The translations under genes and the position numbers were made by a program. A DNA stretch of 51,228 nt from Halioglobus sp. (GTDB taxonomy: Bacteria > Pseudomonadota > Gammaproteobacteria > Pseudomonadales > Halieaceae). The DNA lies in contig PABK01000015.1 in the NCBI GenBank assembly GCA_002699145.1, positions 1 to 51,228 of the forward strand. The letters are read 5' to 3'. Below are positions 656-38,600 of the stretch, piece by piece (positions within the stretch are counted from its first letter, which is position 1; each line of letters starts with the position of its first letter). The notes beneath the pieces were generated by a model. It worked only from the letters and a program-made list of their open reading frames with translations, was not told where the DNA came from and searched no databases.

Positions 656-1115
656 CATATTCTTGGGTCGAATCATAGGCTCTGATGTAGAAGTTCAGAG
701 GTGATCTGAAAGATAGGTCAGGTTCTGTAGAAAAGCAGACGTTGACAAGCCATCGGCGCCAGGCCCATGTCGACCCATTACGGCCGTACGTCCCGCTTAA
801 CCTTTGAGGAATGGTCGCGGGGTCGCCAGTTCATCGGCATCAGGTAAACGATGAACAGCTGTCAGATGGGGTGCAGAACGGATCGATCTGGCATGCACGC
901 GCAGCGATTGGTCGATGATGGCCGGGCTGTGGAGAAGCGGACCGCGACTTGCACCGTTTATCCACGTTAAGTTTATACTAATAACGTGTGATCAGATTGC
1001 TGATTAGGAAAGGCTGGCGTAGTTTTTTGGTTCCTCTAACAGATAGAGCGTGACGCGAAGGTCGTGGAATGCTTCGGAGCGAAGGGTGGATTGTAGGAAG
1101 ATTTTTTTTGAGGAC
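656..1115. other. Gene-free gap with operator-like palindrome
   Basis: No convincing coding sequence is present in these 460 bases. The one visible signal is near the right side: the arms CACGTTA (963-969) and TAACGTG (982-988) are a perfect inverted repeat enclosing a -10-like TATACT (974-979). A weak -35-like TTGCAC lies at 949-954, 19 bases upstream. Confidence 0.4.
949..988 (+). promoter_or_regulatory. Candidate promoter under a palindromic operator
   Basis: TTGCAC (949-954), a 19-base spacer and TATACT (974-979) could form a sigma-70 promoter for the membrane protein gene starting near 1116. Seven-base arms at 963-969 and 982-988 flank the -10 box symmetrically, as expected for a dimeric repressor site. 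The assignment is inference from layout only. Confidence 0.35.
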
Positions 1116-2111
1116 ATGGGGTACGAATGGGTACTAAAACATCTCCCATTTCTCACTGTTGTGGTCGGTTTTTTGGTTTTGGTTGCTGGTTCTTTTTTTG
1201 ATTGGAAAATAGCGGAAACTACTGGAACCACGGTGCTCGCCGCGGGTGTTTTTTCCTCGCTGCTTAAGTCATATCAATTCAAAGGAGTTTTCCATCAAGA
1301 CCTTGAAAGTATTGTATATTCGGAGAAATACTTGGGGACGCTCAAAAATCCATTTGTAGTTCTGAGAACACTGATGCGGGGCCAATTAAGCGATCGGTTT
1401 CCCGGTTGGACGGAAGAGTACTTGGATGTGGTCCTGCAGGAGTATGTCCCCACAAACCATACATATTACATTGAGGATATTGAGCGACGTTTGCATGTCA
1501 CTAGAGACGAAAACGATGTGGACTTCCTGCTGCTTGAAGATGTAGTGACCTGTCGATACTACCCAGACTCTACGGCAGGAGACCACAAGTATTCCATACC
1601 CGCGAGGATTCGCAAGGCGGCGGTAAAAGGCGACCAGTTCTTCGATAGTCTTACCATTGAGGTCGACGGCATAGATTGTACCGCCGCGATTTCAGAGTCT
1701 GAGCCAGTAGAGATAAATGAGGGCGGTGAGCGTTTGCTGCTGTTCGAGCGATCATTGCTTCTGCCAAAGACAGAGCGTGAACGGCCTTATTACGATATAA
1801 TACGTCGATCTAGACGGCGACAGAACATCGCCGAAGATCCACACATGCGAGTTTATGCACAGAGTTTTATTAAAGGGTACGCGTTACGCATATCAGGATT
1901 GGATGAGTTGTTGGATCAGGGGGTTTGTTGTGAATTTATTAATTCTGGAGTGCGTGTGAATTTCCTTGATCACAATGGAAATGATGAAGTACCGAGTGAC
2001 CTGAACGGAGATTTCTACCGGTATACGCCCGAGTTGATATTGCCTAGGCAGGGCTATATACTCGCGTTCATCGTACGTGGCCAGCAAGGTGGTGAAGCAG
2101 AAAATGCTTAG
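1116..2111 (+). CDS. Two-helix membrane protein of unknown function
   Basis: I do not recognise this family. From ATG 1116 it is 331 residues. The N-terminus holds two hydrophobic segments (about residues 9-27, rich in V, L and F, and about 37-50), followed by a soluble, charged domain of ~270 residues with many predicted beta-type stretches and no nucleotide-binding or nuclease motif that I can see. The layout, a short two-helix anchor and a cytoplasmic domain, is shared by several membrane effectors of phage defence systems, but that is only an analogy. An in-frame GTG at 1050 would add 22 residues; ATG 1116 is preferred because the hydrophobic segment follows it directly, although its GAGG is close to the start. 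A palindromic promoter candidate lies upstream and a terminator lies 25 bases downstream, so the gene is probably monocistronic. Confidence 0.6.
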   Translation: MGYEWVLKHLPFLTVVVGFLVLVAGSFFDWKIAETTGTTVLAAGVFSSLLKSYQFKGVFHQDLESIVYSEKYLGTLKNPFVVLRTLMRGQLSDRFPGWTEEYLDVVLQEYVPTNHTYYIEDIERRLHVTRDENDVDFLLLEDVVTCRYYPDSTAGDHKYSIPARIRKAAVKGDQFFDSLTIEVDGIDCTAAISESEPVEINEGGERLLLFERSLLLPKTERERPYYDIIRRSRRRQNIAEDPHMRVYAQSFIKGYALRISGLDELLDQGVCCEFINSGVRVNFLDHNGNDEVPSDLNGDFYRYTPELILPRQGYILAFIVRGQQGGEAENA

Positions 2112-2467: not shown

Positions 2468-3448
2468 CTAGGGCGCGACGCGATCCCGAAAGTCTTTCAG
2501 CCAGGCTTGCACCATGGCGCTGAAGGGCGCTGCATCACGGCCCATACGGGCCATCTCAGCTATCGTGTCTTTGGCCAGATTGCGCACCAGTCGACTCCCG
2601 CGGCTTAGCATATCGTCGTCACTCGACGCCTCTGCTTCCATTTGCTCCGCCAGGCCAAGCATTGTCACAACAGCCGTTTCCAAAAACTCTAAACGGCGCA
2701 GGACCTCGGTGCGAGCTTGAACAAGGTCAAGACGATTCAGGCCATAGACATGTATGGAGGTCGCCCCTTTTAAACTGAGATCATCGTCTCCACGAAATGG
2801 CTCGTGTTGGGAAGCTTCGGGCAGCTTTTTCGGCAACAGAAATGACACCGGCGACTCTTTGTCGAAGTAATACTCCAAATGATCGCCAGGGTTTGGTTCG
2901 CAGGGGTTCAACAGCAGTGCCTGTTCTTCTGACAGGGGCCCCTCTCCGGGTGTTAACAAGCGCGTTCCTGTTGGTGCGAGGGGAAAGCTGTCCATCTTGC
3001 CGCCGTTTTGTCGCTCGGACGCGCTGAACTCAAATGCGTCCTCTTGCAACTTAACTTGTCGCACATCACCAGACGGGGTTATCTGTTTGCGGCGTCGATT
3101 ACAGTCGATGCAACTAGGGAAAAGGTTGGACCACTCCATTGCGAGCCACCAGTACCCGGGATGATTTTCATCCTCGGCCACTGCTCCTTTGGGTCGATAA
3201 TGCTCCACGTCCATGGGATGTACGCTGGCGTAGGGAGCTTCGCAGTAAGCACATTTTCCGTGGAACAGTTCATGCAACGCCTTTTTGACGTGGGCGTTTT
3301 TGTACGCGCCGAATTTATAGGTTTTGATTTGCGCTGGGTCCGGCGCCTGCCCCGGAGGCTGATAGTGATTCCTGGCCCTCTCGAACTCTCGCTCCGCAAC
3401 TTCGAGGTACTCCTCAGGCGGTTGGTCGGGTCGCTCAACGTAACGCAT
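2468..3448 (-). CDS. HNH endonuclease, PtuB-like
   Basis: This 326-residue protein contains a zinc-stabilised HNH nuclease domain at about residues 62-121. Cys66-x2-Cys69 and Cys113-x2-Cys116 bracket the site, the Glu82-His83 pair in VEHYRP supplies the general base, and Asn117 directly after the last cysteine completes the motif. This is the layout of PtuB, the nuclease of Septu defence systems, and of related HNH proteins that work with an ATPase. The start codon lies inside the upstream ATPase gene (14-base overlap), so the two are translationally coupled. The N-terminus begins MRYVER followed by two prolines shortly after, the same opening as the partner ATPase, which suggests a shared ancestral HNH module. 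The expected role is cleavage of foreign DNA under control of the ATPase. Confidence 0.8.
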   Translation of the reverse strand: MRYVERPDQPPEEYLEVAEREFERARNHYQPPGQAPDPAQIKTYKFGAYKNAHVKKALHELFHGKCAYCEAPYASVHPMDVEHYRPKGAVAEDENHPGYWWLAMEWSNLFPSCIDCNRRRKQITPSGDVRQVKLQEDAFEFSASERQNGGKMDSFPLAPTGTRLLTPGEGPLSEEQALLLNPCEPNPGDHLEYYFDKESPVSFLLPKKLPEASQHEPFRGDDDLSLKGATSIHVYGLNRLDLVQARTEVLRRLEFLETAVVTMLGLAEQMEAEASSDDDMLSRGSRLVRNLAKDTIAEMARMGRDAAPFSAMVQAWLKDFRDRVAP

Positions 3449-5774
3449 CGAATTCCATCAGCGCGTCGATGATGTCTTGTCGGGTCTTGCCATGCAGAGC
3501 CTTGAGTTGGACTTGCGTGGCCTCACGCCGTTTCGCCAGATAATGCTGTATGGCCTCCTGTACGATGCGGTGCACATCATTATCGCCGATGGGTAAATCA
3601 GCGCTGAACTGTCGAAGGTATTCCTCAACCTCTTCACGTTCCTCCTCCGTATTGGCGCCTCGCGCAAGGATATCCTCGATTCTCGCGCGTTTGTGTTCAG
3701 CCGTTGCACTTTCGGTGCTGCGAAGCTGAAAGAAATCCGCGGTGAGGAGTTGTTGAACGGTCCAGCCCTGGTTGTCCGGCAGGTCCACTAACGCCTCGGT
3801 GAAAACCGGCAGGCCAGCTTCGCTTTCGCCGCCATGGGTTTGTTCCATGACCAGTACTTCGCCCGCTGCCATGCCGCGCAAACAGAGCGGGTCGTGGGAC
3901 GTGGCGATAAAAAACACATGTGGCAGGGCTTCACGCAGGCCGGTCATGATTGACAGCTTCCAGCGGGGATGTAAATGCGCTTCGATCTCGTCGATCAGGA
4001 CTACCGCACGGGCGGTCTCCAGGGTTTGAAATTCGGGGTTGAACTGCCGGTTCATCAACCCCTGCATGATGTCGCACAGCATGGCCAGGACGGACCGAAA
4101 TCCAGAGGAGACGATTGATAGCGGGGTGCGCTGGACGATGCGCGCGTCTCCGTCGCCTCGATGCGTGACAACAAAAACGCGCTTGTCGTCACGCTCCAGA
4201 ACGTCGAACTCCCCGTCGATGCTAAAGACCGAGCGCAGGGCGCGGGTGACCATGTTGAAGTCGCTCTGATTCAGGCGAACCAGCCATTTCTCGGGATTGG
4301 ACAGGAGGTAGTCGGCCTGAAACAGCGACCGCACATGGCGGTGGAGATCGTTCCGCCGCTCCGTTTTCAAGTATTGGCGAAAGGCACCGTAGGCAAAGAT
4401 AGGCAGCGTCGTGGACGTACCATTTTCGTGAAACCCTTCGCTGTAGCGACCCTGGCCGTCGCGGACAATCTTGAGTGAGAGCTCTGTCCCGTCGTCATAG
4501 GTCAGGTCAACCTGGGCTGTGTTGAATGGGGACCGGTCGCTGCCCAGAAACTGGGGGTCGAGTACCAGGTGTTCGGCCTTGAGCTTCAATCGCAATCGCC
4601 GGTCGATCCCCATCAAAGCCAGTGCGAGCGCCTCCAGCAATGTGCTCTTTCCCGACGCGTTTTCTCCAAGGACCAAGAGGGACGGGGCGGGCGCCTCCGT
4701 GGAGGGGGGCGCATCGGGTACGGGGGGCATGGAGAGCGTGAGGTGCTCCAGGGATTTAAAGTTTCGGATCGTGAGTTTGTGCGGAAACGCGCTGGTTTTC
4801 TTCGGGCGAGCCCCAAGCTTCGAAATGTCGATCTCGGGCGGCGCGGCACCCATGGCGATCGTCACAGGGTTGGTCTCGGATTCCAGAGCGGCTATTGCTC
4901 GATCCATGCGCTCGTAACCATCGGAGAGCTTGCGGAGAGAGGTCAGCGCGCCGTCCAGATCGGTGGGGGCGCGGCTTTGCCCAAGGGCGCCTTGCAGTAG
5001 CTCCCGCAGAAGGATGTGCCACGCCCCGGTGTGGCGCCGCTCACCCAGATATTCTTGCGATGCCTCACTGTCCCGGCCGCGGAACATCTCCTCAAGGGAT
5101 GCGAGTTGCTCAGCAAAGGCCTCCGCTCGCGCTTCAACCAGCGCAGGTCGGTCTAGCTTGAAATGATCAATGGTTTCACGCCCTCGGCGGTCACGTCCCC
5201 TAACGGTGCCATTGGGTAAGAAACGGAAATGTCGCCATAGCTTGCGGTCATAGCAGGGGTCAACGAAGACGGGGTTTTCGTCGAGGGGAAAGCTCGGCCA
5301 CCGGCCATCCTCGCGATCATGGAAAGTCCGAAGCTCTTCCAGTTCCGGGAGAGGCGCACGCTGACCTGAGCTCACGGGGAAGTGCTCGACCTGTTGTGGC
5401 TCACACTCGCGACAGAGCGGATAAAGGTTTTGCCAAGCATCTTTCAACCAGGCGTAGTAAAGATGAGAGGTGCTTGTATCGCTGACCGGCGTTGCGTTGG
5501 ACGCGGGTCGAAACCGGTGCATGATGGGGTCGGGTCCGGTGGGGGTTTCGCAAAACGCACACCGACCATCAAAGAGTTTCAGTAGCGCCTCGATGCGGTC
5601 ATCGCTGATACTGTCGGATGTATCGAAAGTACCTGTTTTTGTCGCCATGCGAGACTGCTGCACGGCTGCCTCGCCCTTTTCGAAGAAATCGATCAGGTCC
5701 TGCCGTCCGCGGCGCGCCTCGGTACTGGCAAACCATGCCGGAGGGGGTACCTTGTCTCGTTCAACGTATCGCAT
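3435..5774 (-). CDS. ABC-type AAA ATPase with degenerate N-terminal HNH domain, PtuA-like
   Basis: The 779-residue protein has two parts. Residues ~1-130 resemble the neighbouring HNH nuclease: the same MRYVER opening, zinc ligands Cys72-x2-Cys75 and Cys121-x2-Cys124, and an HRFRP segment aligned to the partner's EHYRP. The catalytic Glu-His is replaced by His-Arg and the Asn after the last cysteine by Glu, so the fused domain is probably not a nuclease. Residues ~333-680 form an OLD/RecF-type ATPase: Walker A GENASGKST (370-378), signature-like SSGFR (556-560), Walker B VVLIDEIEAHLHP (591-603) and the switch histidine in ATSHD (624-628). This matches PtuA-like sensor ATPases. The start at 5774 is 10 bases after the hydrolase stop, with AAGGAG overlapping the last hydrolase codons. 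Upstream in-frame codons would run through the hydrolase gene and were rejected. Confidence 0.8.
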   Translation of the reverse strand: MRYVERDKVPPPAWFASTEARRGRQDLIDFFEKGEAAVQQSRMATKTGTFDTSDSISDDRIEALLKLFDGRCAFCETPTGPDPIMHRFRPASNATPVSDTSTSHLYYAWLKDAWQNLYPLCRECEPQQVEHFPVSSGQRAPLPELEELRTFHDREDGRWPSFPLDENPVFVDPCYDRKLWRHFRFLPNGTVRGRDRRGRETIDHFKLDRPALVEARAEAFAEQLASLEEMFRGRDSEASQEYLGERRHTGAWHILLRELLQGALGQSRAPTDLDGALTSLRKLSDGYERMDRAIAALESETNPVTIAMGAAPPEIDISKLGARPKKTSAFPHKLTIRNFKSLEHLTLSMPPVPDAPPSTEAPAPSLLVLGENASGKSTLLEALALALMGIDRRLRLKLKAEHLVLDPQFLGSDRSPFNTAQVDLTYDDGTELSLKIVRDGQGRYSEGFHENGTSTTLPIFAYGAFRQYLKTERRNDLHRHVRSLFQADYLLSNPEKWLVRLNQSDFNMVTRALRSVFSIDGEFDVLERDDKRVFVVTHRGDGDARIVQRTPLSIVSSGFRSVLAMLCDIMQGLMNRQFNPEFQTLETARAVVLIDEIEAHLHPRWKLSIMTGLREALPHVFFIATSHDPLCLRGMAAGEVLVMEQTHGGESEAGLPVFTEALVDLPDNQGWTVQQLLTADFFQLRSTESATAEHKRARIEDILARGANTEEEREEVEEYLRQFSADLPIGDNDVHRIVQEAIQHYLAKRREATQVQLKALHGKTRQDIIDALMEFDALR

Positions 5775-5784
5775 TGAGGAAAGT

Positions 5785-7194
5785 TCAAAGCTCCTTGGCG
5801 AGGATGGGGGTGTCTTCCTTCCTGTCACCCCAGAGTTTTTGCTCCGTGGTGTGTCCCGCAAGGTTGAGCGACTGTCGCAGTGCTTTGAGCGTTTCGTTGG
5901 CGGTATCGTCAATGGATGCGTGCCAATAGTTCGTGTGACGAAACCCTGGGGGTTCGCCGATCTGGATTTCCACATCCAGGGCGCCGCGGCCAAAGAGCGG
6001 CGAGACCTTGCCGGAAATGATGTCACCCCGAATTAGCCGACGATAGGGAACATACACATTGGTCCAGACGACGGGCGCGAATACGGCGGCGTGGTGTGGA
6101 CGTCGACTATCTGAATTCAGTGGATAGGAAAACCGTTCGATGGGCTTCCCCCCGTTTTCCCCTGCCTCAAAGATCGGCGGAGAGGTTGGTAGCTCCCGTC
6201 GCTCCTTTCGATCGTCCAAATCAGTGGAGTTGGCCGCCATCAGCACATCCGCTTTTGACAGCGGTGAGCCCAGCGTGACCAGATCGCTCACCAACCAAAG
6301 GGGATCGTCATCAGCTGAAAGCTCGGCAAAATACGCCCGCTGCGCCTCTCGATAGGCAACGCGGGCGGTCCCCACATCCTTGGGCGCGGCATCGCGGAGC
6401 GCGAGGCCAGCTAATTCAACATCATGCAATGCGGCGGCAGCGGGGGTGTTCGCGGCATGGTACTTCTTGCAGGCTGCCTGGGGGAGTCGGTTCCACAGGA
6501 AGTTCACGATGTCATAGGCAATGACTGATCCCAGAGAATGGCCAACGATCACAATGCGATCATAGTCATTACTGGCGCTCAGCGTCTCGAGAAGCTCCAC
6601 CCCTTCTTTGCGAATTTGTTGCCGCACAGCGACATTGCCCGGTGCGGCACTGAGGTATCGGGCCGCATCACCTGCATAGGGCAGGATCTTTATTGTCAGC
6701 AGTAAGCCCCCGATGCTCGCAAGGATGGGTAGGCCGACTACCAGCCAGGGGTGAATCGTCACTCCCGGGATTCGATCCTGTGCGAACCACAGTATGGCGA
6801 GCGCTAGGGTCGTAAGGAGCAGAAAACAACCAAAGGACCAGACACCGAGGAGCCTCTCGGGGACGTTTCGAGGGTGCCGCACAAACAGATCTTTCAGCCA
6901 GGCTAGCAATGCAGCGACCGTATGGCTTTGCATATGGTGTGCCCAGTAGAATTCAAAAAAATCCATGCGTTGCCGGGTCCCGGCGCTGGCTTGCCGTGTG
7001 GTAATCCGGCGCAATTCATAGGAGCCGGATACCAGTTCGGGTTTTGAAAAAACCTCAGCGCGTGAGGGGTGTACCAGTTCCGCGTCGTCGCCCCATACAG
7101 CCTTCACGAACTCCGGGAGCGTCTCCATCGGGCGTTGTTCACCGATACCATGGATAACGACGACGGCGATTTTTTTGCCAGATGCTTTAGACAA
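5785..7194 (-). CDS. Membrane-associated alpha/beta hydrolase (lipase/esterase-like)
   Basis: The 469-residue protein has the alpha/beta hydrolase landmarks: an N-terminal strand followed by HGIGEQ (15-20), which forms the oxyanion hole, and a nucleophile elbow GHSLG with Ser220. A late histidine in the HTNYW segment (~residue 430) could complete the triad. Two strongly hydrophobic helices (about 116-138 and 149-171) sit between the oxyanion strand and the nucleophile, so the protein is probably anchored in the inner membrane. The start is TTG 7194 with AAGGAG five bases upstream. It is the first gene of a minus-strand operon followed 10 bases later by the HNH-ATPase. Related soluble proteins are lipases or esterases; the substrate is unknown. 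Its position suggests a lipid- or membrane-directed effector, or a regulator, of the Septu-like pair. This is inference. Confidence 0.65.
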   Translation of the reverse strand: MSKASGKKIAVVVIHGIGEQRPMETLPEFVKAVWGDDAELVHPSRAEVFSKPELVSGSYELRRITTRQASAGTRQRMDFFEFYWAHHMQSHTVAALLAWLKDLFVRHPRNVPERLLGVWSFGCFLLLTTLALAILWFAQDRIPGVTIHPWLVVGLPILASIGGLLLTIKILPYAGDAARYLSAAPGNVAVRQQIRKEGVELLETLSASNDYDRIVIVGHSLGSVIAYDIVNFLWNRLPQAACKKYHAANTPAAAALHDVELAGLALRDAAPKDVGTARVAYREAQRAYFAELSADDDPLWLVSDLVTLGSPLSKADVLMAANSTDLDDRKERRELPTSPPIFEAGENGGKPIERFSYPLNSDSRRPHHAAVFAPVVWTNVYVPYRRLIRGDIISGKVSPLFGRGALDVEIQIGEPPGFRHTNYWHASIDDTANETLKALRQSLNLAGHTTEQKLWGDRKEDTPILAKEL

Positions 7195-7399
7195 GCGGCT
7201 CTCCTTTTGGCTTGAGCGCCATACAAAGGGTGGCTAGCGACGTCGAGCGACTGGGCAAAAAACACCCTCCACGACGTGTGAAACCAGCATAGCATTTCGT
7301 CGCCGATTGTCATGGGAAGCACTGTACTCGCTCGGCGAGCACGGGTGAATGCGTTAGCGGGTGAGAAAGTGGCCGGTCAGCGCAGCCGTCGCGGCTTCG
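7195..7399. other. Short intergenic region upstream of the hydrolase operon
   Basis: These 205 bases separate the 3' end of the CI-like gene from the hydrolase start on the same strand. Apart from the AAGGAG just before TTG 7194 I see no terminator or clear promoter, so read-through from the repressor gene into the defence operon is possible. Confidence 0.4.
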
Positions 7400-7969
7400 C
7401 TAAATGGCATCCAGTATGGCGAGCTCCAGAAAGGCGCTGGCCGTCGCCAACACCGTGTCTTCGTCTGGGGCGCTACCCTTGCCGATCTTTATCGCGTAGT
7501 AGCGAGCGACCCGGATAAGCACTTTGGTCCACAGCGGCAGTTGTTCCGGGGCCAACGGATCCAGCCCTTTCTCCTTCATTGCGCGGGCCACCACGGTCTG
7601 CACAAACCCCTGTTCTGGTGGCGTCAGTCCACTGCGGGCCAGCTCGGCATTCACATCCAGAGCAATGTATTTGCCGGTCAGAAAGTCCAGTAATTCCTCC
7701 TGAGTTGCGTTCACGGGGTAGTGCGCAGTGATGTAAGCGGTAAGCGTTGTCAGATTACTCCGCCGGGGCTTCGTCCCGGTAAACCACTTACCTGCCGCCA
7801 CCGGCTGAATACCCGCCGCGTTGACCAACCACTTGGATCGACCCTGGCCCTGGGGGGGCACTGAGAGTGCATCAAGCAGTGCATTGAGCCGGTCCGCAAA
7901 CGCCGAGTGAGCGTGGGCCAATGCTTCCAGGTCGAGGAGCATGCTCTGTGTCACTAGTGTGGTCGCCAT
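7400..7969 (-). CDS. Putative CI-like DNA-binding repressor
   Basis: From ATG 7969 the protein has 189 residues (a GTG two codons upstream is an alternative). Residues ~15-75 look like a lambda-repressor-type helix-turn-helix: FADRLNALLD, then GRSKWLVNAAG and AAGKWFTGTKPRRSNLTTL, the spacing expected for two helices and a recognition-helix flank. The C-terminal half, rich in Leu and Ala, is unassigned and has no LexA-type protease Ser-Lys motif that I can see, so RecA-induced self-cleavage is not indicated. It is transcribed divergently from a Cro-like gene that leads the transfer operon, which suggests that it holds transfer genes off and competes with the Cro-like protein at shared operators. 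Confidence 0.5.
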   Translation of the reverse strand: MATTLVTQSMLLDLEALAHAHSAFADRLNALLDALSVPPQGQGRSKWLVNAAGIQPVAAGKWFTGTKPRRSNLTTLTAYITAHYPVNATQEELLDFLTGKYIALDVNAELARSGLTPPEQGFVQTVVARAMKEKGLDPLAPEQLPLWTKVLIRVARYYAIKIGKGSAPDEDTVLATASAFLELAILDAI

Positions 7970-7975
7970 GCGCAC

Positions 7976-10171: not shown

Positions 10172-12210
10172 GCGCGCCGATCGAAGCCCTGCTGCGTCCC
10201 CCCGTGGAACAGTCCGCCATCGCGACACACCTGGCGCTGGCCCTGTTAGGTGTGGGTGCGCCCCAGGTGCTATTGCTGCCGGGCGGCGTCGGTTATGGCC
10301 TGGCCGCTGCTTGCTCCCTGCGCGCTCTGTGGCTGTCCCGGCGCGTGACCCGCTTGCTGCGCTACCAGCGCCGCTTACGGGTGTTGCCGAGCTACCGTAT
10401 CCACCCTAAAACACTCCGTGCCCCGCAAGGCGAGCTGTTCCTGGGGCGGGGTTTTCTGTGGGATGCACGGCATACACAGCGCTACGCCGATACTCAGCGC
10501 TTCGAGCACGCCCATTTCGACCGCCGCGGCCTGTTTTATAGCAGTGTGCGGGCGACGGTGGACGGTGTTAGTACCACGCCCCTAAAACCCCTGATGACGC
10601 CACTGAACAGCCAGTGGCTGCTGAATCCCTTTCCACCGCGGAGCTATGTGGAGGGCAGCCCGGAACTTCACGGGGTCGGCCTGTTCGAGAAGGAGCAGGA
10701 CGTTACCCTGCAGCAGGCCGAACGAGTCGCTCACACCTTTGTTGTCGGTACCACCCGGGTGGGTAAAACCCGCCTGCTGGAAGTGATCGCCAGTCAGGAT
10801 ATCCGGGGTGGCGACGTGGTCATCGTCTTTGATCCCAAAGGGGACGGCGATTTGCTGGCGCGCCTGTATACCGAGGCCCGCCGGGTGGGCAGGGCCGGGG
10901 AGTTCCAGGTGTTTCACCTGGGCTTTACAGAGCAGTCGGTGGCCTACAACCCCGTGGGCTCGTTTTCCCGGGTGACGGAGGTCGCGAGCCGCATCGCCGG
11001 GCAACTGCCCAATGAAGGGAATTCCGCCGCGTTCAGGGAGTTTGCCTGGCGCTACGTCAATGTACTGGCCAAGGTGCTTGATGTCCTTGGCGAACCCATC
11101 AACTACCAGGTGTTGCTGGAGTGCAGTACGGACATCGACGCCCTTGTGGTGCGCTACCTCGCCTGCGTGGCCCGGCAACACCAGTTCGAGGACTGGTCCG
11201 AACAGCTGGCGGACCTGGTCGCGAGCGAGGCCAAGATGCCGGTGCAATACAAAGGCCGGGATCGCACGGCCTGGGCCAGTGTCGAGCTATTTCGGCGCAA
11301 CGGGTTCAATGACCCCACGGCAACCTCGCTGATCAAAACCTTTGAACACGACAAGAGCCACTTTGACAAGTTGGTGGCCAGCCTCTACCCCCTGTTGGAA
11401 AAACTCACGTCCGGTCCGGTGGCCCAGCTCCTCTCCCCGGAAAGTAGTCCCGAGGACACCAGGGAGCGGCTGTCCTGGAAACGCGTGATCGAACGTGGCG
11501 GTATCGTCTATGTCGGTTTGGACGCGCTCTCTGACCCGGATGTCGCCAGTGCCGTGGGCAATGCCATGTTCGCGGATCTTACCTCGGTAGCGGGTAGCCT
11601 TTATAAGGACGCCCAGCGCGGTGCGCCCCTGAAAAAGGTCTGCGTGCATGCGGATGAGTTCAATGAGCTGGTGGGCAGGGAGTTTATTCCGCTGGCCAAC
11701 AAGGCCGGCGGCGCCGGGTTTCAGTTGACCGTTTATACCCAGACCCTCTCGGACATCGTCGCCCGTTTCGATAACCCGGCGCGGGCGGGGCAAGTGGTGG
11801 GTAACCTCGGCACCATCATCATGCTGCGGGTCAAGGAAAAAGCCACGGCGGAACTGCTGACCACACGCCTGAAAGACGTCGAGATCAACCACCTCATGTT
11901 GGACTCGGGCAGCACCGACAGTGCCGACCCCACTACTGATGTGCATTTCACCTCGAGTACTCGCCAGCGAATCTCCAGCCAGCGGGTACCGATGCTCCAC
12001 GCCGGGGACCTGGATGCCCTACCGAAAGGCCACGCCTTCGCTCTGATTGCCGGTCGTCTCTACAAACTGCGCCTGCCGTTGTTTTCCGATGAGGCGGAGC
12101 TGCCCAGCGGCCTGCAGGCGATGGTTGAGGCCATGCGTCGGGACTACCAACACGGTGACACGGCGAGCACGGATTGGGCGACCACGACACCCCTGGGTTG
12201 GCAATCATGA
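10168..12210 (+). CDS. traD: Conjugative coupling protein TraD (VirD4 family)
   Basis: The 680-residue coupling ATPase delivers the relaxase-DNA complex to the secretion channel at the inner membrane. Two N-terminal transmembrane helices (about residues 16-55) are followed by the ATPase domain: Walker A GTTRVGKT (about 194-201), a VIVFDPKGDGD segment after it, and Walker B VCVHADEFNE (~490). The QTLSDI and GNLGTIIMLRVKE segments are typical of the PFGI-1 class (TIGR03743) of TraD. Its length fits that class. Start and stop both overlap the neighbours by four bases, so translation is coupled. Confidence 0.92.
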   Translation: MSAPIEALLRPPVEQSAIATHLALALLGVGAPQVLLLPGGVGYGLAAACSLRALWLSRRVTRLLRYQRRLRVLPSYRIHPKTLRAPQGELFLGRGFLWDARHTQRYADTQRFEHAHFDRRGLFYSSVRATVDGVSTTPLKPLMTPLNSQWLLNPFPPRSYVEGSPELHGVGLFEKEQDVTLQQAERVAHTFVVGTTRVGKTRLLEVIASQDIRGGDVVIVFDPKGDGDLLARLYTEARRVGRAGEFQVFHLGFTEQSVAYNPVGSFSRVTEVASRIAGQLPNEGNSAAFREFAWRYVNVLAKVLDVLGEPINYQVLLECSTDIDALVVRYLACVARQHQFEDWSEQLADLVASEAKMPVQYKGRDRTAWASVELFRRNGFNDPTATSLIKTFEHDKSHFDKLVASLYPLLEKLTSGPVAQLLSPESSPEDTRERLSWKRVIERGGIVYVGLDALSDPDVASAVGNAMFADLTSVAGSLYKDAQRGAPLKKVCVHADEFNELVGREFIPLANKAGGAGFQLTVYTQTLSDIVARFDNPARAGQVVGNLGTIIMLRVKEKATAELLTTRLKDVEINHLMLDSGSTDSADPTTDVHFTSSTRQRISSQRVPMLHAGDLDALPKGHAFALIAGRLYKLRLPLFSDEAELPSGLQAMVEAMRRDYQHGDTASTDWATTTPLGWQS

Positions 12211-12875
12211 GCCGTGATACGACCGTTCGCAACGCGCGGGATAACGCACCGGCACGACCGGTCAAGCGCGGGATGTTCGGTAGGACATTGGCCACCCTGG
12301 GGGCGTTGATGGGCGCGGTGTTAAGCGCTGCACTGCTTTCCGTGCTTCTGGAAGGGGCCGGCATCGCGCTGGGTTGGTGGCCGGATACCCACAGTCGTGA
12401 TCTGCTCATCATCGAGCGCGGCTATATCGAGGCCCTCGATGACTATCCGCTGTCACCGCTACGACCCACCCAACTGACCGCCCTGGCCTGGGGCCAGTTC
12501 GACCGGGGTCTGTCGTTTGTCGGCATCACCGCGACGGTGGGCGCTCAAGGGGTGGCAGCGATCAACACCGTGAAGCTGTTGCTGCTGCGTCTGGTGATTG
12601 TGGTGCTGGCTCTGCCCGGTTACGCCCTCGCGGTTGTGGCAGGTCTATTTGAGGGTCTGGTGGCCCGGGACATTCGCAAGTTCACCGGCGGCCATGAGAG
12701 CGCGTACGTGTTCCATAAAGCCAAACGCTGGATTACGCCGAGCGTGATGCTCACCGTGACGCTGTATCTGATGCTGCCCTGGTCGGTGCCCCCAGCGCTG
12801 CTGTTCGCGCCGACCCTCATGTTGACCGCCGGACTGGTTTACATCGCTGCCAGTCGGTTCAAAAAGTTTGTGTAG
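12207..12875 (+). CDS. ICE membrane protein, PFL_4697 (TIGR03747) family
   Basis: A 222-residue integral membrane protein with a helix near residues 30-55 and further hydrophobic segments in the C-terminal half (LLLLRLVIVVLALPGYALAVVAG and VMLTVTLYLMLPW). The GLFEGLVARDIRKF and GHESAYVFHKAKRW segments between them are the family signature. Members always follow traD and may help couple TraD to the channel. ATG 12207 overlaps the traD stop as ATGA; the longer frame from 12174 would run back into traD. Confidence 0.85.
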   Translation: MSRDTTVRNARDNAPARPVKRGMFGRTLATLGALMGAVLSAALLSVLLEGAGIALGWWPDTHSRDLLIIERGYIEALDDYPLSPLRPTQLTALAWGQFDRGLSFVGITATVGAQGVAAINTVKLLLLRLVIVVLALPGYALAVVAGLFEGLVARDIRKFTGGHESAYVFHKAKRWITPSVMLTVTLYLMLPWSVPPALLFAPTLMLTAGLVYIAASRFKKFV

Positions 12876-12889
12876 GAGACCGGGACGCT

Positions 12890-13150
12890 ATGCCACTGAT
12901 GAGCCCCGCACAACAGAGTGCCTTTGACGGTGCCAATGGCAGCGGTCACAGCGCCGCGGATGTGCACACCCTGGTGGTCTCGGTGCTGATGGTTCTGATG
13001 TTGCTGTGGCTTGCCTGGGTTGCGATCAGTGCCTACCAGCTTCTCAAGACTCCAGGGATCAAAACCCCGGAGGCCGCCGGCAAGGTTGTCCGCGCGGCAT
13101 TCATTGCGATGGTCACCATGGCCGTCGCCAACATCGTATGGGGAACCTGA
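12890..13150 (+). CDS. ICE conjugation protein, PFL_4701 (TIGR03758) family
   Basis: An 86-residue protein with two hydrophobic helices (LVVSVLMVLMLLWLAWVAISAY and VVRAAFIAMVTMAVANIVWG) joined by a short polar loop. Size and topology match the PFL_4701 family and resemble VirB2/TraA-type pilin subunits, so a pilus or channel role is plausible. AGGAGA lies about 10 bases before the ATG. In many related clusters a RAQPRD-motif protein gene precedes this one; here only 14 bases separate it from the PFL_4697 gene, so that gene is absent. Confidence 0.8.
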   Translation: MPLMSPAQQSAFDGANGSGHSAADVHTLVVSVLMVLMLLWLAWVAISAYQLLKTPGIKTPEAAGKVVRAAFIAMVTMAVANIVWGT

Positions 13151-13162
13151 GAGGACCTGACT

Positions 13163-13567
13163 ATGCAACGAATGAATATGGTGATCACCGCCGATCGAGG
13201 CAGCCCGGCGCGTCTGCGTGCCAGCCAACAGTGCCTGGGATTGCACGTCACCGGCCTCCTGCTGGGAGCCGGTACCACCGGCGCACGGGCCCAGGGCCTG
13301 CCGACCACGGCACCGCCTTCCCGCGGCAGCACGGACGGTGACTATATCGGGTTGATGCAGGACTACGCCTTTGATATTGGCGTCTTCATCGGCCTGGCGC
13401 TGGCCACCCTGGCCATGATCGTTGTCGTGAAAAACACCTTAGGTGCGTATTCCGAAGTGCAGGACGGCAAGGGCACCTGGGGACAACTGGGTGTCAACTT
13501 CGGCGCCGGCGTGTTGCTGTTGGTGTTCATCGTCTTTTTGCTCACCGAGGCGGCGACGATTCTTTGA
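13163..13567 (+). CDS. ICE membrane protein, PFL_4702 (TIGR03745) family
   Basis: The 134-residue protein has a signal-like N-terminus (a hydrophobic LHVTGLLLGAGTTGARAQ segment ending in Ala-x-Ala) and two later transmembrane helices around IGVFIGLALATLAMIVVV and GVLLLVFIVFLL. The motif DGKGTWGQLG before the last helix and the ending AATIL identify the PFL_4702 family. Like its upstream neighbour it has the size of a pilin-type subunit. Its TGA shares bases with the next ATG. Confidence 0.8.
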   Translation: MQRMNMVITADRGSPARLRASQQCLGLHVTGLLLGAGTTGARAQGLPTTAPPSRGSTDGDYIGLMQDYAFDIGVFIGLALATLAMIVVVKNTLGAYSEVQDGKGTWGQLGVNFGAGVLLLVFIVFLLTEAATIL

Positions 13568-32347: not shown

Positions 32348-32452
32348 GATAGGCATTGAGTATGATACGCCGTTCGCGTAACAACTTTAGGTAAGTTTTT
32401 TGGAGCAGCTCAATAATTGCTCAGTAATTTAGACAGAGGAACACCACGAACA

Positions 32453-34468
32453 ATGGCACAACTGGAAAACATCGAGGCGATAGAGCGCCGTCTTTGGGGT
32501 AGTGCGGATAATCTGCGGGCCAACAGCAACTACGCCAGCAATGAATATTTCATGCCCGTCATGGGGCTCATTTTCCTTCGTCATGCCTATAGCCGCTATC
32601 TGGCCATCAAGCCGGAAATCGAAGCAAGTCTTCCCAGCCGGGGCGGCAAGACCCGTCCACTGACCAAGGAGGACTTTTCCAGTAAGAGCGCTATCTATCT
32701 GAGACCGGAAGCACAATTCGATTATCTCGTTAATCTGTCTGATGCCGATGATCGCGCCCAGGCCATTATCAATGCCATGGATATGATCGAAGAGGACTAC
32801 GAGACTCTGGATGGTGTTCTACCCAAGAGTGAGTACCAGGAGCTCGATAACGAAGTTCTCGGAAATCTGTTCCGAACTTTCAATGACCCGGCTTTGAAGA
32901 GCGCCACAGGCGATATCTTTGGCCGGATTTATGAGTATTTCCTGACGCAATTTGCCGATCAAAAGGCTCATGACGGCGGTGAATTCTTTACGCCGGTGTC
33001 TCTGGTTCAAACGCTCGTTAACGTGATTGAGCCTGATCACGGTGATGTGATTGACCCGGCTTGTGGTTCAGGCGGTATGTTTGTGCAAAGCGCTCACTTT
33101 ATCGAGCATCTTCACAAGAGCCCGCAGGACGTGGCTACCTTCTATGGGGCAGAGAAGAACCCCACTACGATCCGCCTTGCCAAGATGAACCTCGCCGTTC
33201 ACGGCTTGGAAGGCAAGATTTCCAAAGCGATTTCCTATTACGAAGACCCCCATGAAATGCTGGGTAGTGCCGACTTTGTAATGGCCAATCCGCCCTTCAA
33301 TGTCGATGACGTTGACGCGGAAAAGATCAAGAACGATCCGCGCTTGCCGTTCGGCTTGCCGGGAGTTAATAACAAGAAGAAGGTCTCCAATGGTAACTAC
33401 CTCTGGATTTCCTATTTTTACAGCTACCTCAGTGACAAAGGGCGCGCCGGGTTCGTCATGTCTTCGCAAGCCTCCAGTGCTGGAAGCGGAGAAGCGGAAG
33501 TAAGGCGCAAGCTCGTGGAAACCGGCCATGTAGACGCCATGATGTCTATACGTGGTGATTTCTTTTACACCAGGTCCGTACCCTGTGAACTATGGTTTTT
33601 TGATAAAGCTAAGCCGGTAGAACGCAAAGACAATGTCTTGATGATTGACGCCCGGAATGTCTTCAGAAAAGGCCACGTGAAGCGCACCAAGTGTGACTTC
33701 TCACCGGAGCAGCTTGCCAAGCTGACATCTATCGTCTGGCTATATCGCGGTGAGAATGACCGTTTTGTAGCGCTGATCGAAAGCTATTTGCAAAGAACGC
33801 TGGATGAGGCGCAGGCCGCCAAAGAACCGATGGACGATTTCATCGCCAGCCTTGATGGCGTGATCGACAAGCTACCGGCAGTCGATGAAGAAACCACGAA
33901 AGCCTTTGCGTTGCTTAGTGTTGATATCAAATCTTTTGAAAACGCTATCGAATCTGAAAGTAAAGCCTGGGGCAAAGCCTCTCGTGACAACGCAGGTCTC
34001 ATTAAAGCTGCGGAGAAGCTGGAGCCCATCGCAGAAACGAGCCGTGTTCTCATCAAACAGATAGATCAACTCTTAAAATTTGCCGAAAAGCAGGCCAAAG
34101 AGACCCATGAAAAAGGGCTAAACAAACTGATTAAGGAGCTAGATATCCAGCGCAAGGCTGCTGTCGAGCAGCTTAAGGAAGTTCGCTATATCTTCAAGCA
34201 AGCACACTGGCTGCAAGAGCACTTCCCTGATGCCGAGCTTTGTGATGTAGAAGGGCTCGTCAAGCTTGTCGATATTGAAGAAATTGAAGCCAATGACTGG
34301 AGCCTAACGCCAGGTCGCTATGTGGGTATTGCACCGGAGGAGGAAGATGACGATTTCGACTTTGAAGAAGCCCTCACAGATATGCACATTGAGTTGAATG
34401 GACTAAATGAAGAAGCTACTTTGCTTGCTGCTCAAATTCAGAGAAACTTCGAGAGCTTGGGTATATGA
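32453..34468 (+). CDS. hsdM: Type I restriction-modification DNA methyltransferase HsdM
   Basis: The 671-residue N6-adenine methyltransferase subunit begins at ATG 32453; a TTG 36 bases upstream is less likely. After the N-terminal HsdM helical domain the catalytic domain shows GEFFTPVSLVQTLV, SAM-binding DPACGSGGMF and catalytic NPPF in VMANPPFNVDD. The C-terminal ~200 residues are rich in charged coiled-coil helices, longer than in E. coli HsdM. With HsdS it methylates host sites and with HsdR it restricts. The stop overlaps hsdS (ATGA). Confidence 0.93.
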   Translation: MAQLENIEAIERRLWGSADNLRANSNYASNEYFMPVMGLIFLRHAYSRYLAIKPEIEASLPSRGGKTRPLTKEDFSSKSAIYLRPEAQFDYLVNLSDADDRAQAIINAMDMIEEDYETLDGVLPKSEYQELDNEVLGNLFRTFNDPALKSATGDIFGRIYEYFLTQFADQKAHDGGEFFTPVSLVQTLVNVIEPDHGDVIDPACGSGGMFVQSAHFIEHLHKSPQDVATFYGAEKNPTTIRLAKMNLAVHGLEGKISKAISYYEDPHEMLGSADFVMANPPFNVDDVDAEKIKNDPRLPFGLPGVNNKKKVSNGNYLWISYFYSYLSDKGRAGFVMSSQASSAGSGEAEVRRKLVETGHVDAMMSIRGDFFYTRSVPCELWFFDKAKPVERKDNVLMIDARNVFRKGHVKRTKCDFSPEQLAKLTSIVWLYRGENDRFVALIESYLQRTLDEAQAAKEPMDDFIASLDGVIDKLPAVDEETTKAFALLSVDIKSFENAIESESKAWGKASRDNAGLIKAAEKLEPIAETSRVLIKQIDQLLKFAEKQAKETHEKGLNKLIKELDIQRKAAVEQLKEVRYIFKQAHWLQEHFPDAELCDVEGLVKLVDIEEIEANDWSLTPGRYVGIAPEEEDDDFDFEEALTDMHIELNGLNEEATLLAAQIQRNFESLGI

Positions 34469-35610
34469 GTATGCGGTGGGAAAGGGTCGAACTAGGTAGT
34501 GAAGTAACCCTACTTTCCGGTGGGACGCCCAAGAAGAGTGTTCCGGCTTTTTGGGATGGAGAAATTCCTTGGGTAAGCTCCGGCGAAATGACTCAAAGAA
34601 GGATTTGGGACACTGCGCTGCATGTTACAAACGAAGGTGCTATCAAAGGTACCAAACTGATACCGCCGAAAACGGTATTGGTCGTAGTTCGTGGCATGTC
34701 ACTGGCAAAAGAGTTTCGCGTTTCGCTAACGCAGCGTGAAGTGACTTTTAATCAGGATATAAAGGCACTGAAATGCTCTGAACGCCTGAATCCCGAATTT
34801 CTTTACTATTATTTACTATCTCAGGCACGCTCTATTCGAGATTCCACTACCGAAGCATCGCATGGCACAAAGAAACTCGAAAGTGTGATTCTCCAAAAAT
34901 GGCCGCTCCCAGTGCCTAGCGACCATGAGCAGTTGGCTATAGTGGAGGTTCTCTCAAAATATGACGATCTCATATTTAATAACAAACGCCGAGTTGAAAT
35001 ATTAGAAGAGTCAGCGCGACAACTCTACAAAGAGTGGTTTGTACGATTTAGATTTCCAGGTCATGAGCATGTCAAGATAGTTGATGGAGTGCCAGAAGGT
35101 TGGCATAGATGTCAGGTCGGCGACTTGCTTACTCTCCAGCGTGGTTTTGATTTGCCAGTCAAAAACCGCATAGAGGGAACTGTTCCTATATATGCATCTA
35201 CCGGAATAAACGGATACCACAATGAATACAAAGTAAAAGCTCCGGGTATCGTGACAGGCCGAAGTGGATCATTGGGAACGGTTTTATATGTTTCGAAAGA
35301 TTTTTGGCCCCTTAACACCGCATTGTGGGTTAAAGAATTTAAGAAAGTTACGCCATACTACGCACTATTTTTCCTACAGAGCTTAAAACTGGAAAATTAT
35401 AACGGTGGTGCGGCTGTGCCCACGTTAAACCGGAATGATGTTCATCGTATTGAAACATTTTCACCGCCAGAAAAATTGCTTGAATCGCTCAATGATTATT
35501 TAAACCCCATATTTGATCAAATAGACACTTTAGCTCAACAGAACCTTAAGTTATCTCAAGCCCGCGACCTCCTTCTCCCAAATCTCATGAACGGGGAGAT
35601 TGCTGTATGA
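34465..35610 (+). CDS. hsdS: Type I specificity subunit HsdS
   Basis: The 381-residue protein has two target-recognition domains: residues ~1-150 (opening WERVELGSEVTLLSGGTPKKS) and ~205-345 (GWHRCQVGDLLTLQRGFDLP), each followed by a conserved helix (the first with SKYDDLIFNNKRRVEILEESARQL, the second ending LSQARDLLLPNLMNGEI). It sets the bipartite DNA target, which cannot be read from sequence. The gene is visibly richer in A and T than hsdM and hsdR, as expected for a specificity gene exchanged between loci. It overlaps both neighbours by four bases. Confidence 0.93.
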   Translation: MSMRWERVELGSEVTLLSGGTPKKSVPAFWDGEIPWVSSGEMTQRRIWDTALHVTNEGAIKGTKLIPPKTVLVVVRGMSLAKEFRVSLTQREVTFNQDIKALKCSERLNPEFLYYYLLSQARSIRDSTTEASHGTKKLESVILQKWPLPVPSDHEQLAIVEVLSKYDDLIFNNKRRVEILEESARQLYKEWFVRFRFPGHEHVKIVDGVPEGWHRCQVGDLLTLQRGFDLPVKNRIEGTVPIYASTGINGYHNEYKVKAPGIVTGRSGSLGTVLYVSKDFWPLNTALWVKEFKKVTPYYALFFLQSLKLENYNGGAAVPTLNRNDVHRIETFSPPEKLLESLNDYLNPIFDQIDTLAQQNLKLSQARDLLLPNLMNGEIAV

Positions 35611-38600
35611 CACCAATGAATGAAGACACATTGGTGCAGCAGACCACGGCTGATTATCTTGAGGATAATCTGGCCTGGGATGAAAATGTCTTCGCTTATA
35701 ATAACGAAACCTTCGGGCCGGAAGGAACTCTGGGACGCAGCTCTGATAAAGAAGTCGTATTAACGCGCTATCTGGGGGAAGCGCTTGTAACGCTTAATCC
35801 GGGATTACCACAGACGGCCTATAAAGACGCTGTGCGGCAGATTACGGATAGTTCTTCCTTTGCCAATACATTGCAGATCAACCGCGAGAAATACGAGCTC
35901 GTTAAAAGCGGTGTTCAGGTCCAGTACAGGAACGAGAAAGGCGCGCTTGTTAAAAAGCGGCTCAAAGTTATCGACTTTGATAATCCCGAGAAAAACCATT
36001 TTCTTTGTGTCCGTGAATTATGGGTGCGGGGTGACATCTATCGCCGCCGCGCCGACATAATGGGTTTTATAAACGGCCTGCCCTTGCTCTTTATCGAATG
36101 CAAGACCGTCCATAAAGATATACGCCGGGCCTATGAAGAAAACCTGTCTGATTACAAGGACACGGTGCCGCACCTGTTCCATCACAATGCGTTTGTTGTA
36201 TTGGGTAATGGTGTCAATGCCAAGATCGGATCGATCTCCAGCAAGTTTGAGCACTTCAATGAATGGAAGCGCCTGGCAGAAGATGAGCCCGGTATTGTTG
36301 ATATGGAGACCTTGCTCAAAGGTGTCTGTAACAAGCGTGACTTTCTTGATCTCTTCGAGAATTTCATTCTCTTTGATGAAAGCAGTGGCGGGCTGATCAA
36401 GATTGTGTCCCGCAACCACCAGTTTCTGGGTGTCAATCGGGCCATCGAGGCGACCAAAGACCGGAGGAACCGGGAGGGGAAGCTCGGTGTCTTCTGGCAT
36501 ACGCAAGGATCGGGCAAGTCATACTCGATAGCGTTCTTTACAAGGAAGATTCACCGCAAGCTGGGGAGTAATTTTACCTTCCTGATCTGTACGGACCGTG
36601 AAGATTTGGATGGGCAGATATACAAGACCTTTGCTGGATGCGGACTTGTTGATAATGACGCCGATCCCTGCCGTGCGAGCTCCGGTGATAATTTGCAGCA
36701 GCTCTTAAATCAGCATAAGGCATACGTCTTTACTCTGGTCCAGAAATTCAACAAAGATGTGGACCCGAACGAGCCTTATTCGGGCCGTGACGACATTATC
36801 GTCATCACTGATGAGGCGCACCGCACACAATATGGGCGGCTAGCGCTCAATCTGCGCAATGCGCTGCCTAATGCCAGCCGGATCGGATTTACCGGCACGC
36901 CGCTCTTTAAGGATGATGAAATCACGCGCCGTGTCTTTGGTGACTATATCTCGACCTATGACTTTCAGCGGGCTGTAGAGGACAAAGCCACAGTGCCGCT
37001 TTACTACGATGCGCGCGGCGAGAAGCTGGGGCTTGAAACGAATGATCTCAATGAGCGTATCGCTGAAAAGCTGGAAGAATATGAGGCGGAAGATGTCGAT
37101 ACGGCAGAGCGCCTGGAAAAGGAGCTCAAGCGCGATTATCACCTGATTACAGCCGAGAGCCGCCTGGAGCAGATCGCCCAGGACTTTGTGATCCATTACA
37201 GCACGCAGTGGGAGACCGGTAAGGCGATGTTCGTCTGTATCGATAAGATCACCTGCGTAAAAATGCACGGTCTTATCATGGCGTGTTGGGAAAAACGTAT
37301 CGCTGAGCTAGAAAGGGAGCTCGCTGCTTGCTCTGACGAGCAGGAACTCGCCCAGCGGCAACGCCAGCTTGGATGGATGCGTGAAATCCTGATGTCCGTC
37401 GTGGTGAGTGAAGAGCAGGGCGAGGTCGATAAGTTCCGTAAATGGGGTTTTGACATTACGCCTCACCGGAAGCTGATCAAGGAAGGATTTGAAACCGAAG
37501 ACGGCAAGCGCATTGACATGGAAAGTGCGTTTAAGAAGGAAGAGCATCCTTTTCGCGTTGCCATCGTCTGCGCCATGTGGCTCACCGGCTTTGATGTGCC
37601 GAGTATGTCTACGCTGTATCTCGATAAGCCGCTTAAGGCCCATACCCTCATGCAGGCGATAGCTAGGGCGAATCGTATCCATGAAGGAAAGAATAACGGC
37701 CTGATCGTTGATTACTGCGGTATCTTGAAAAACCTGCGCAAGGCGCTGGCCACTTTCGCAGGTCATACCGGGGAGGGCACGCTTGGCGGCGATGATGTTC
37801 CCCCCGAGGTCGATCCCGTCCGGCCCGAGGAGGAACTTCTAGCCGATCTAGAGGAGGCCATAGAAGCGGTGAAGGCCTATCTTGAAGCGCATGAGTTCAA
37901 TCTTGCTGACATTAACGAGAAGACCGGTTTTGAACGGAACAAAGCCATTATGGAGGCGAAGGAAGCAGTCAATATCAATGATGAAACCCGCAAGCGATTC
38001 GAGATCATGTGCCGGGAGGTCTTCAAGAAGTTCAAGGCTTGCCTGACGATCAAAGGGGTAAATGCCTACCGTCACAGCTATGATGCGATCAATATCATCT
38101 ATAAGAGCCTTCAGCAGGATGTGGAGAAAGCGGATATCTCGGACATTATCCGCGAGCTTCACAAGATCATCGATGAAACTGTGGATACCGCTAAGGCCGA
38201 CGCTGTGGCAGAGGAGAAGCTCTACGATATCAGTCAGATCGACTTTGACCGCCTGCGCAAAGAGTTTGAAAGAAGTCCCGCCAAGAACACGACTGTCCAG
38301 GCCTTAAAGGACATGATTGAGAGCAAGCTACGCAAGATGCTCATGCAAAACCCCATTCGCACTGACTTTCAGAAGCATTATGAGGAGATCGTCGCTGACT
38401 ATAACAATGAAAAAGACAGGGTGACTATAGAAAAGACCTTTGAAGCGCTGCTTAAGATTACGCAGGAACTTAACGAAGAAGAGAAGCGGGCGGTAAAAGA
38501 AGGCCTGGACGAGGAGTCACTGGCGCTCTTTGATTTGTTGTTAAAGCCTAACCTATCCAAGCAGGACATTGCGCGGATCAAGAAAGTCGCTGAAGGCTTG

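Follow-up and report, generated by a model that had tools for sequence, protein, structure and literature searches.

Architecture of the locus

A 51,228-nucleotide stretch of Halioglobus sp. DNA (positions 1 to 51,228 of contig PABK01000015.1, assembly GCA_002699145.1; hereafter the window) carries a three-gene, minus-strand operon in which a gene for a putative membrane alpha/beta hydrolase precedes homologues of ptuA and ptuB, the genes of the Septu defence system. The hydrolase gene (5785..7194, minus strand, 469 amino acids) opens with a TTG start closely preceded by the Shine-Dalgarno-like AAAAGGAG (7201..7208, minus strand), read by eye. After a gap of 10 bases follows ptuA (3435..5774, minus strand, 779 amino acids, ATG), which encodes an N-terminal HNH-like domain and an ABC/SMC-type ATPase, and 14 bases of its end overlap ptuB (2468..3448, minus strand, 326 amino acids, ATG), an HNH nuclease gene with intact EH.RPK and W.NL motifs. 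This order and spacing agree with a preliminary description of the same DNA, which had also likened the last two genes to ptuA and ptuB. Full-length matches to PADLOC models bear that likeness out, PtuA matching PDLC00291 (E 1.8e-249, 828 bits) and PtuB matching PDLC00329 (E 3.1e-116, 386 bits). The ptuA frame extends open to a GTG at 6026, and the PDLC00291 match starts at residue 85 of this open reading frame (ORF), the ATG at 5774. Because the operon encodes three long proteins, each with many homologues, and because their order recurs elsewhere, the trio is beyond chance. The source genome (5.2 Mb in 61 contigs, the window being contig 31 from its first base) holds a single hydrolase match.

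The hydrolase is a predicted serine hydrolase with a helical hairpin

No Pfam or NCBIfam family matches the hydrolase above its cut-off (Lipase_3 reaches 16 bits against 22, EstD 14.1 against 600), and PADLOC gives no match at E 1, on which ground we rejected its identity with a described defence protein. Among 56 relatives, single members match Pfam weakly (Abhydrolase_6 in 9, DUF900 in 6, Hydrolase_4 in 6, LCAT in 4), and the weak matches of the family include Lipase_3, LCAT and PGAP1. An AlphaFold model built on 56 aligned sequences predicts a confident alpha/beta-hydrolase fold (pLDDT 93.3, pTM 0.93), with a nucleophile elbow, a central sheet and an Asp and a His in the expected order. Nearly all of the 50 Foldseek matches listed against the PDB are alpha/beta hydrolases, all of them weak (best E 0.021); none of those listed reaches E 0.001, and there is thus no close solved structure.

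The nucleophile elbow is the GHSLG motif at residues 218-222 (6529..6543, minus strand), with S220 as the predicted nucleophile. H15, G16, G18, D304, H367, D391 and H420 do not vary across the 84 aligned hydrolases, 83 of which have S220. The probable catalytic residues are S220, D391 (or D304) and H420, with a triad S220-D391-H420 suggested by their order in the sequence. The preliminary description had also pointed to two internal helices beside the GHSLG motif, and these lie at hydrophobic residues 114-140 and 147-175, modelled as helices 113-138 and 149-181. Together they form a hydrophobic hairpin (residues 113-181; 6652..6858, minus strand) that is probably the membrane anchor of the hydrolase and would place the enzyme at the membrane. 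The hairpin insert contains at least two hydrophobic 19-mers in 78 of the 84 hydrolases and one in the remaining 6, while 12 of the 84 also have one elsewhere.

PtuA carries an HNH-like domain and PtuB an intact one

A profile built from 29 PtuAs finds solved PtuA chains and, with its positions 35-226, a solved PtuB chain as well, so that we read the N-terminal part of PtuA as a PtuB-like domain. The HNH-like core of this domain (residues 72-124; 5403..5561, minus strand) keeps its four cysteines (72, 75, 121 and 124) and N116 in 29/29 aligned PtuAs. Alignment with the PtuB EH.RPK motif and general knowledge of HNH nucleases identify column 87 as the catalytic His position, which is occupied by R in 13, H in 11, Q in 3 and L in 2 of the 29. 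In the window it is R, the domain is probably a pseudo-nuclease, and we rejected a second active nuclease in this PtuA. The earlier label of an HNH-ATPase thus stands for the presence of both domains, but not for a second nuclease activity. The His is kept in 11 of 29 relatives, and its loss is therefore not general. The Walker A motif (GENASGKS, residues 370-377; 4644..4667, minus strand) keeps G370, K376 and S377 in 29/29 PtuAs, and D595, E596 and H627 are kept in all 29 as well. In these residues we read a Walker A motif, a Walker B motif and an H-loop, on which PtuA is classed as an ABC-type ATPase. In PtuB the EH.RPK motif, the HNH active-site motif of Septu, is intact in 13/13 aligned sequences. 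In 32 of the 33 loci listed, ptuB comes after ptuA on the same strand; no ptuB was found in the remaining one, a fused-PtuA locus (L094).

The hydrolase recurs with ptuAB as an optional module

The preliminary description had made its proposal hinge on a conserved association of the hydrolase with such gene pairs in other genomes, and the hydrolase does recur with ptuAB pairs elsewhere, as an optional partner. A scan of genome contigs yielded at least 279 relatives of the hydrolase, of which the best 80 by likeness to the window's protein were taken as genome loci, some of them on short contigs. The proteins of the window served as phmmer queries (E 0.001) for ptuA in their flanks, a search that may miss distant ptuAs. 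In 10 of the 80 loci the hydrolase, ptuA and ptuB follow one another in this order on one strand (loci L008, L009, L011, L013, L019, L045, L060, L076, L081 and L085). The gaps range from -4 to 37 bases (-4 in three loci, then 1, 5, 5, 9, 9, 15 and 37) and the lineages are distant, with L008 and L009 being near-copies and L081 an 8-kb contig of a metagenome-assembled genome that may be mis-binned. Two further loci keep the same strand: L037, counted as a looser partner, has a gap of 265 bases and a PtuA without HNH, and L057 has a truncated PtuA at a distance of about 440 bases. By eye, the N terminus of the L037 PtuA (11559-13235), which adjoins the hydrolase, consists of hydrophobic helices, and this may be a membrane-anchored PtuA.

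PtuA with a fused HNH-like domain is rare, occurring in 5 of 398 genomes of the phylum, in 1 of 385 of another class and in 1 of 369 of the window's own class (the window's own genome), in draws that overlap. This rarity makes a chance adjacency of the hydrolase and fused ptuA most unlikely. The hydrolase is likewise found in 5 of the 398 genomes, and both genes occur in the window's own genome and in G241. Taking the two counts as one draw, since the listed handles agree, their co-occurrence gives a Fisher p of 0.04 without the window's own genome and 0.0012 with it. Among the four other fused-PtuA genomes, the hydrolase is present in G241 (L095), downstream of ptuB; it was not found nearby in L093, L094 or L096, and L094 also has a short ptuA. 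Ten plasmid records hold a hydrolase relative, and of the six whose surroundings were viewed, four have ptuAB near: with two genes between (L002), in a tight arrangement with a gap of 29 bases (L003), convergent (L004), or with a broken hydrolase (L006). ptuAB was not found near the hydrolases of L005 and L007. On viral contigs, within 8-kb flanks, one locus has a fused PtuA without the hydrolase (L107) and another the hydrolase without PtuA (L108).

The pairing has been remade with its gene order kept

We compared the histories of the two proteins. A hydrolase tree of 86 rows, made by a quick method without bootstrap, carries the label "beside ptuA" on 20 rows. This label needs 10 changes, at least 7 of them forced by the starred branches, against a mean of 18.3 in shuffles, and 0 of 500 shuffles fell as low. 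Hydrolase and PtuA identities are correlated across 15 of the 21 loci holding both (Mantel r 0.42, a value reached by 8 of 5000 permutations; L006, L020, L022, L037, L057 and L095 left out). The hydrolases of L060, L076, L081 and L085 are 64-77% identical, while their PtuAs share 25-30% in five of six pairs, the L060-L076 pair being the exception at 64%. The opposite swap is seen between L002 and L004, whose PtuAs are 75% identical and whose hydrolases share 40%. As judged from these identities, the hydrolase-ptuA pairing has been remade repeatedly while the gene order was kept.

Several observations weigh against the hydrolase being a component of Septu. No ptuA was detected in the flanks of 65 of the 80 genome loci, nor within about 7 kb of three of the four other hydrolase loci in the 398-genome draw. 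The hydrolase and ptuA are convergent in L059, and in two Hymenobacter loci (L020 and L022) ptuA is short, unfused and accompanied by ptuB, and runs divergently from the hydrolase at distances of 449 and 505 bases. On a PtuA tree of 33 rows (L094 dropped), which mixes loci chosen through the hydrolase with loci chosen through PtuA, the hydrolase label is scarcely clustered: it needs 8 changes where shuffles average 10.5, and 35 of 500 shuffles are as low. The hydrolase could then be an independent gene whose only tie to Septu is a common defence island or insertion hotspot. The two divergent and two convergent loci (L004 and L059) would suit such a gene, as would the many loci without a detected ptuA, the conserved chromosomal site of the Pseudomonas copies, and an annotated alpha/beta hydrolase that, in the accessible text of one report, marks a defence hotspot of P. 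aeruginosa (PMC10250203), a correspondence by annotation. We consider this explanation decidedly unlikely: it has to accommodate ten tightly spaced same-strand operons in distant lineages, and hitchhiking is hard to accept for a partnership that was remade with its gene order kept.

Lipase genes beside other PtuAs

We then turn to plasmids with a PtuA relative, for which 30 records were found at E 1e-30, 24 of them covering at least 80% of the query; many are near-copies, and the independent cases are correspondingly fewer. In 10 of the 30 (Rhizobium 8, Paracoccus 2) the gene immediately following ptuB, on the same strand, is patatin-like. It was placed by coordinates and viewed in four loci (L098, L099, L101 and L117), with gaps of 12 to 33 bases. 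Pfam Patatin is above its cut-off in 3/3 of the genes tested, and on the PtuA tree the three rows with a patatin group in a single clade. A patatin relative is held by 22 plasmid records, 10 of which have it beside the PtuA match; in the one viewed of the other 12, from Tistrella, no ptuAB is annotated nearby. A Tle1-like gene (PF09994, E 8.9e-77) lies convergent with ptuB in L097, but as a third lipase it is a weak candidate, since it sits 12 bases from a same-strand helicase gene and may belong with that. PADLOC at E 1e-5 gave no match for the Tle1-like protein or for two of the patatins. A convergent PLD-like gene in L121 and an upstream acyl-esterase-like fragment in L103 were not counted as lipase partners. 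A hydrolase of the window's type occurs near ptuAB in 7 of the 30 records (Phaeobacter 3, Sinorhizobium 3, Rhizobium etli 1), and the other 23 give no match to it; the tight plasmid trio of L003 was found through the hydrolase and lies outside these 30. Together these neighbours suggest that Septu acquired lipase-type genes repeatedly, possibly to add a killing step.

Other neighbours and genomic setting

Of ten neighbours of the hydrolase in loci without Septu, four belong to metabolic or signalling families of an ordinary kind and one is a trypsin-endonuclease. Pfam gives no match at E 0.01 for the other five, of which the one in L015 looks like a false reading frame. Trypsin-like proteases lie near the hydrolase in three loci, joined to an effector-associated domain EAD5 (L002, 8879-9976), a non-specific endonuclease (L062, 5254-7362) or a Schlafen AlbA_2 domain (L081, 708-2069). 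In Alteromonadales (L028, L031 and L040) two conserved genes of unknown function follow the hydrolase, and the product of the first looks, by eye, like a lipoprotein at its N terminus. Weak matches of a neighbour in L028 to JetC (E 0.00014) and LmuB (E 0.00037) were read as coiled coil, and its assignment as an SMC protein was rejected. In Pseudomonas (L046, L047, L049, L054, L058, L067-L070, L073, L074, L077-L080 and L082) the hydrolase lies in a largely conserved chromosomal neighbourhood in which no ptuA was detected, suggesting a separate, ordinary role there.

In the window the trio adjoins the conjugation genes of an integrative element (TOL/SXT-type TraD and PFL_4706-type TraC). The next ORF upstream of the hydrolase (7400-7975) has no Pfam match at E 1. 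On the plus strand, 20-655 encodes the C-terminal part of the UzuA (Uzume) defence protein with its GIY-YIG domain (PADLOC E 1.9e-50); the match covers model positions 97-278 of 278, and as the ORF begins at the contig edge the remainder may be cut off. Between it and the trio, 1050-2111 (plus strand) encodes a 353-amino-acid protein that none of Pfam, PADLOC and NCBIfam matches at E 1; by eye, it has a hydrophobic stretch close to the N terminus. Type I restriction genes lie at 32417-38825 (plus strand), with HsdR above and the HsdM-like match below cut-off, and a Tn3-family transposase at 47335-49959.

Relation to known systems

The locus resembles Septu type I in its adjacent, overlapping ptuA and ptuB homologues, in its ATPase and HNH motifs, and in its full-length matches to the PtuA1 and PtuB1 models of PADLOC. 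It differs in the N-terminal HNH-like domain of PtuA and in having a third gene where Septu has two: the hydrolase gene stands first in the operon, with 10 bases between it and ptuA, and recurs in this company elsewhere. Since PADLOC also admits a third gene, ptuC, we read the trio as a Septu variant. The accessible text of the PADLOC paper names a reverse transcriptase as a gene added to Septu and also mentions Hma, an operon of its own that often lies near Septu (PMC8565338). Retron I-A, or Septu type II (PtuC, PtuA, PtuB), likewise combines PtuAB effectors with an extra gene before ptuA (PMC8565338), but here that gene encodes a hydrolase and not a reverse transcriptase. The HNH-like domain falls within the length of PDLC00291, which PADLOC describes only as an AAA ATPase domain model; fused PtuA itself is not new, since PADLOC has PtuA models of such length. 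No pairing of Septu or PtuA with a hydrolase, patatin, phospholipase or lipase was found in the searchable part of open-access PMC text, although subscription papers or preprints may describe one.

Two other defence systems offer parallels. CBASS with the patatin-like phospholipase CapV employs an anti-phage lipase effector that attacks the cell's own membrane. The trio would share a lipase-type effector with it, but has no cyclase gene and is partnered with PtuAB. Lamassu joins an SMC/ABC-type ATPase core to exchangeable effector enzymes. A core of this kind paired with different enzymes is found here too, with the differences that the added enzyme is a separate gene and that the core also holds an HNH nuclease. 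Protease-nuclease pairs are described for Lamassu (PMC12799240). We rejected an identity with the Lamassu hydrolase-protease, as the "hydrolase" of the protease pairs in the accessible text of that paper is of the metallo-beta-lactamase type, a different fold.

A model for the three-gene variant

We hold it to be a roughly even call that the trio is a three-gene Septu variant in which the hydrolase acts as a second, lipid-directed effector triggered together with PtuAB. PtuA, with its ABC-type ATPase and pseudo-HNH domain, would assemble with the HNH nuclease PtuB, and the complex would react to phage infection by attacking nucleic acid, like other PtuAB pairs. The hydrolase, a serine hydrolase presumably held at the membrane by its helical hairpin, would be kept inactive until PtuAB is triggered; once released it would cleave an acyl ester of the inner membrane and halt the infected cell. 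In sister operons the patatin-like gene would occupy the equivalent place after ptuB. We infer the membrane location, the substrate, the control by PtuAB and the abortive outcome, the control from operon structure and partner exchange, and the lipid substrate from the patatin genes that neighbour sister ptuAB pairs. The membrane- or lipid-directed killing step that the preliminary description had suggested is plausible, and gains weight by analogy with these patatins. Against the model stands that no solved structure is close to the hydrolase.

Alternatively, the hydrolase may belong to the system without being its killer, anchoring PtuAB at the membrane, sensing membrane damage or restraining PtuAB, with its enzymatic activity in a regulatory role. 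The conserved hairpin would suit such a role, and the PtuA pseudo-HNH domain could serve as a docking surface. According to the accessible text of one study, PtuA and PtuB of retron-Eco7 are toxic together and not singly, and arrest growth without a lipase, which would make a second killer unnecessary (PMC11555353). The catalytic residues are nevertheless all kept in 19/19 Septu-linked hydrolases tested, the window's included, and the patatin beside sister ptuAB is of another family, which suits a shared lipid chemistry over a shared docking surface; we consider this role unlikely, if not strongly so. A further alternative places the chemistry elsewhere, on a non-lipid ester (an acylated nucleotide, an aminoacyl-tRNA or a protein acyl group) linked to the PtuAB target. 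As far as the accessible texts go, the PtuAB of retron-Eco7 and of Septu EcB88 lead to loss of tRNA-Tyr, and another PtuAB is reported to act on DNA (PMC11555353, PMC13096335). The weak and mixed Pfam matches leave a wide choice of substrate. The hydrophobic hairpin, the presence of Lipase_3, LCAT and PGAP1 among those matches and the patatins beside sister ptuAB pairs all speak against a non-lipid ester, which we regard as very improbable.

Beyond the lipid-directed effector of the trio, HNH-fused Septu might more broadly be a platform on which lipase effectors can be exchanged. One ATPase would trigger two arms, PtuB as the nuclease and, at the membrane, the hydrolase or a patatin, perhaps others; the HNH domain would in many PtuAs be reduced to a regulatory or docking part. 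Septu would then be an abortive system with two arms, and the hydrolase would found a new family of defence lipases. This broader proposal is tentative, and we would sooner doubt than adopt it, because the hydrolases of PtuA-led plasmids do not form tight trios where viewed and the Tle1-like gene lies nearer a helicase gene. The Phaeobacter hydrolases are probably broken (one of three viewed, the other two giving the same two-piece match), that of S. meliloti is convergent with ptuAB (one of three Sinorhizobium records viewed), and two genes intervene in R. etli. By position, 12 of the 30 records lack lipases of these kinds (ten viewed: L100, L102-L106 and L118-L121).

Should the lipid-directed reading of the trio hold, Septu, hitherto known for nuclease activity, would extend its attack to membranes by way of interchangeable lipases, in the manner of CBASS. 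An unnamed family of membrane hydrolases, for which the genome collection yields at least 279 relatives, would then have a suggested function. Because partners were swapped repeatedly, the interface of PtuA with its lipase is open to testing through comparison of natural pairs.

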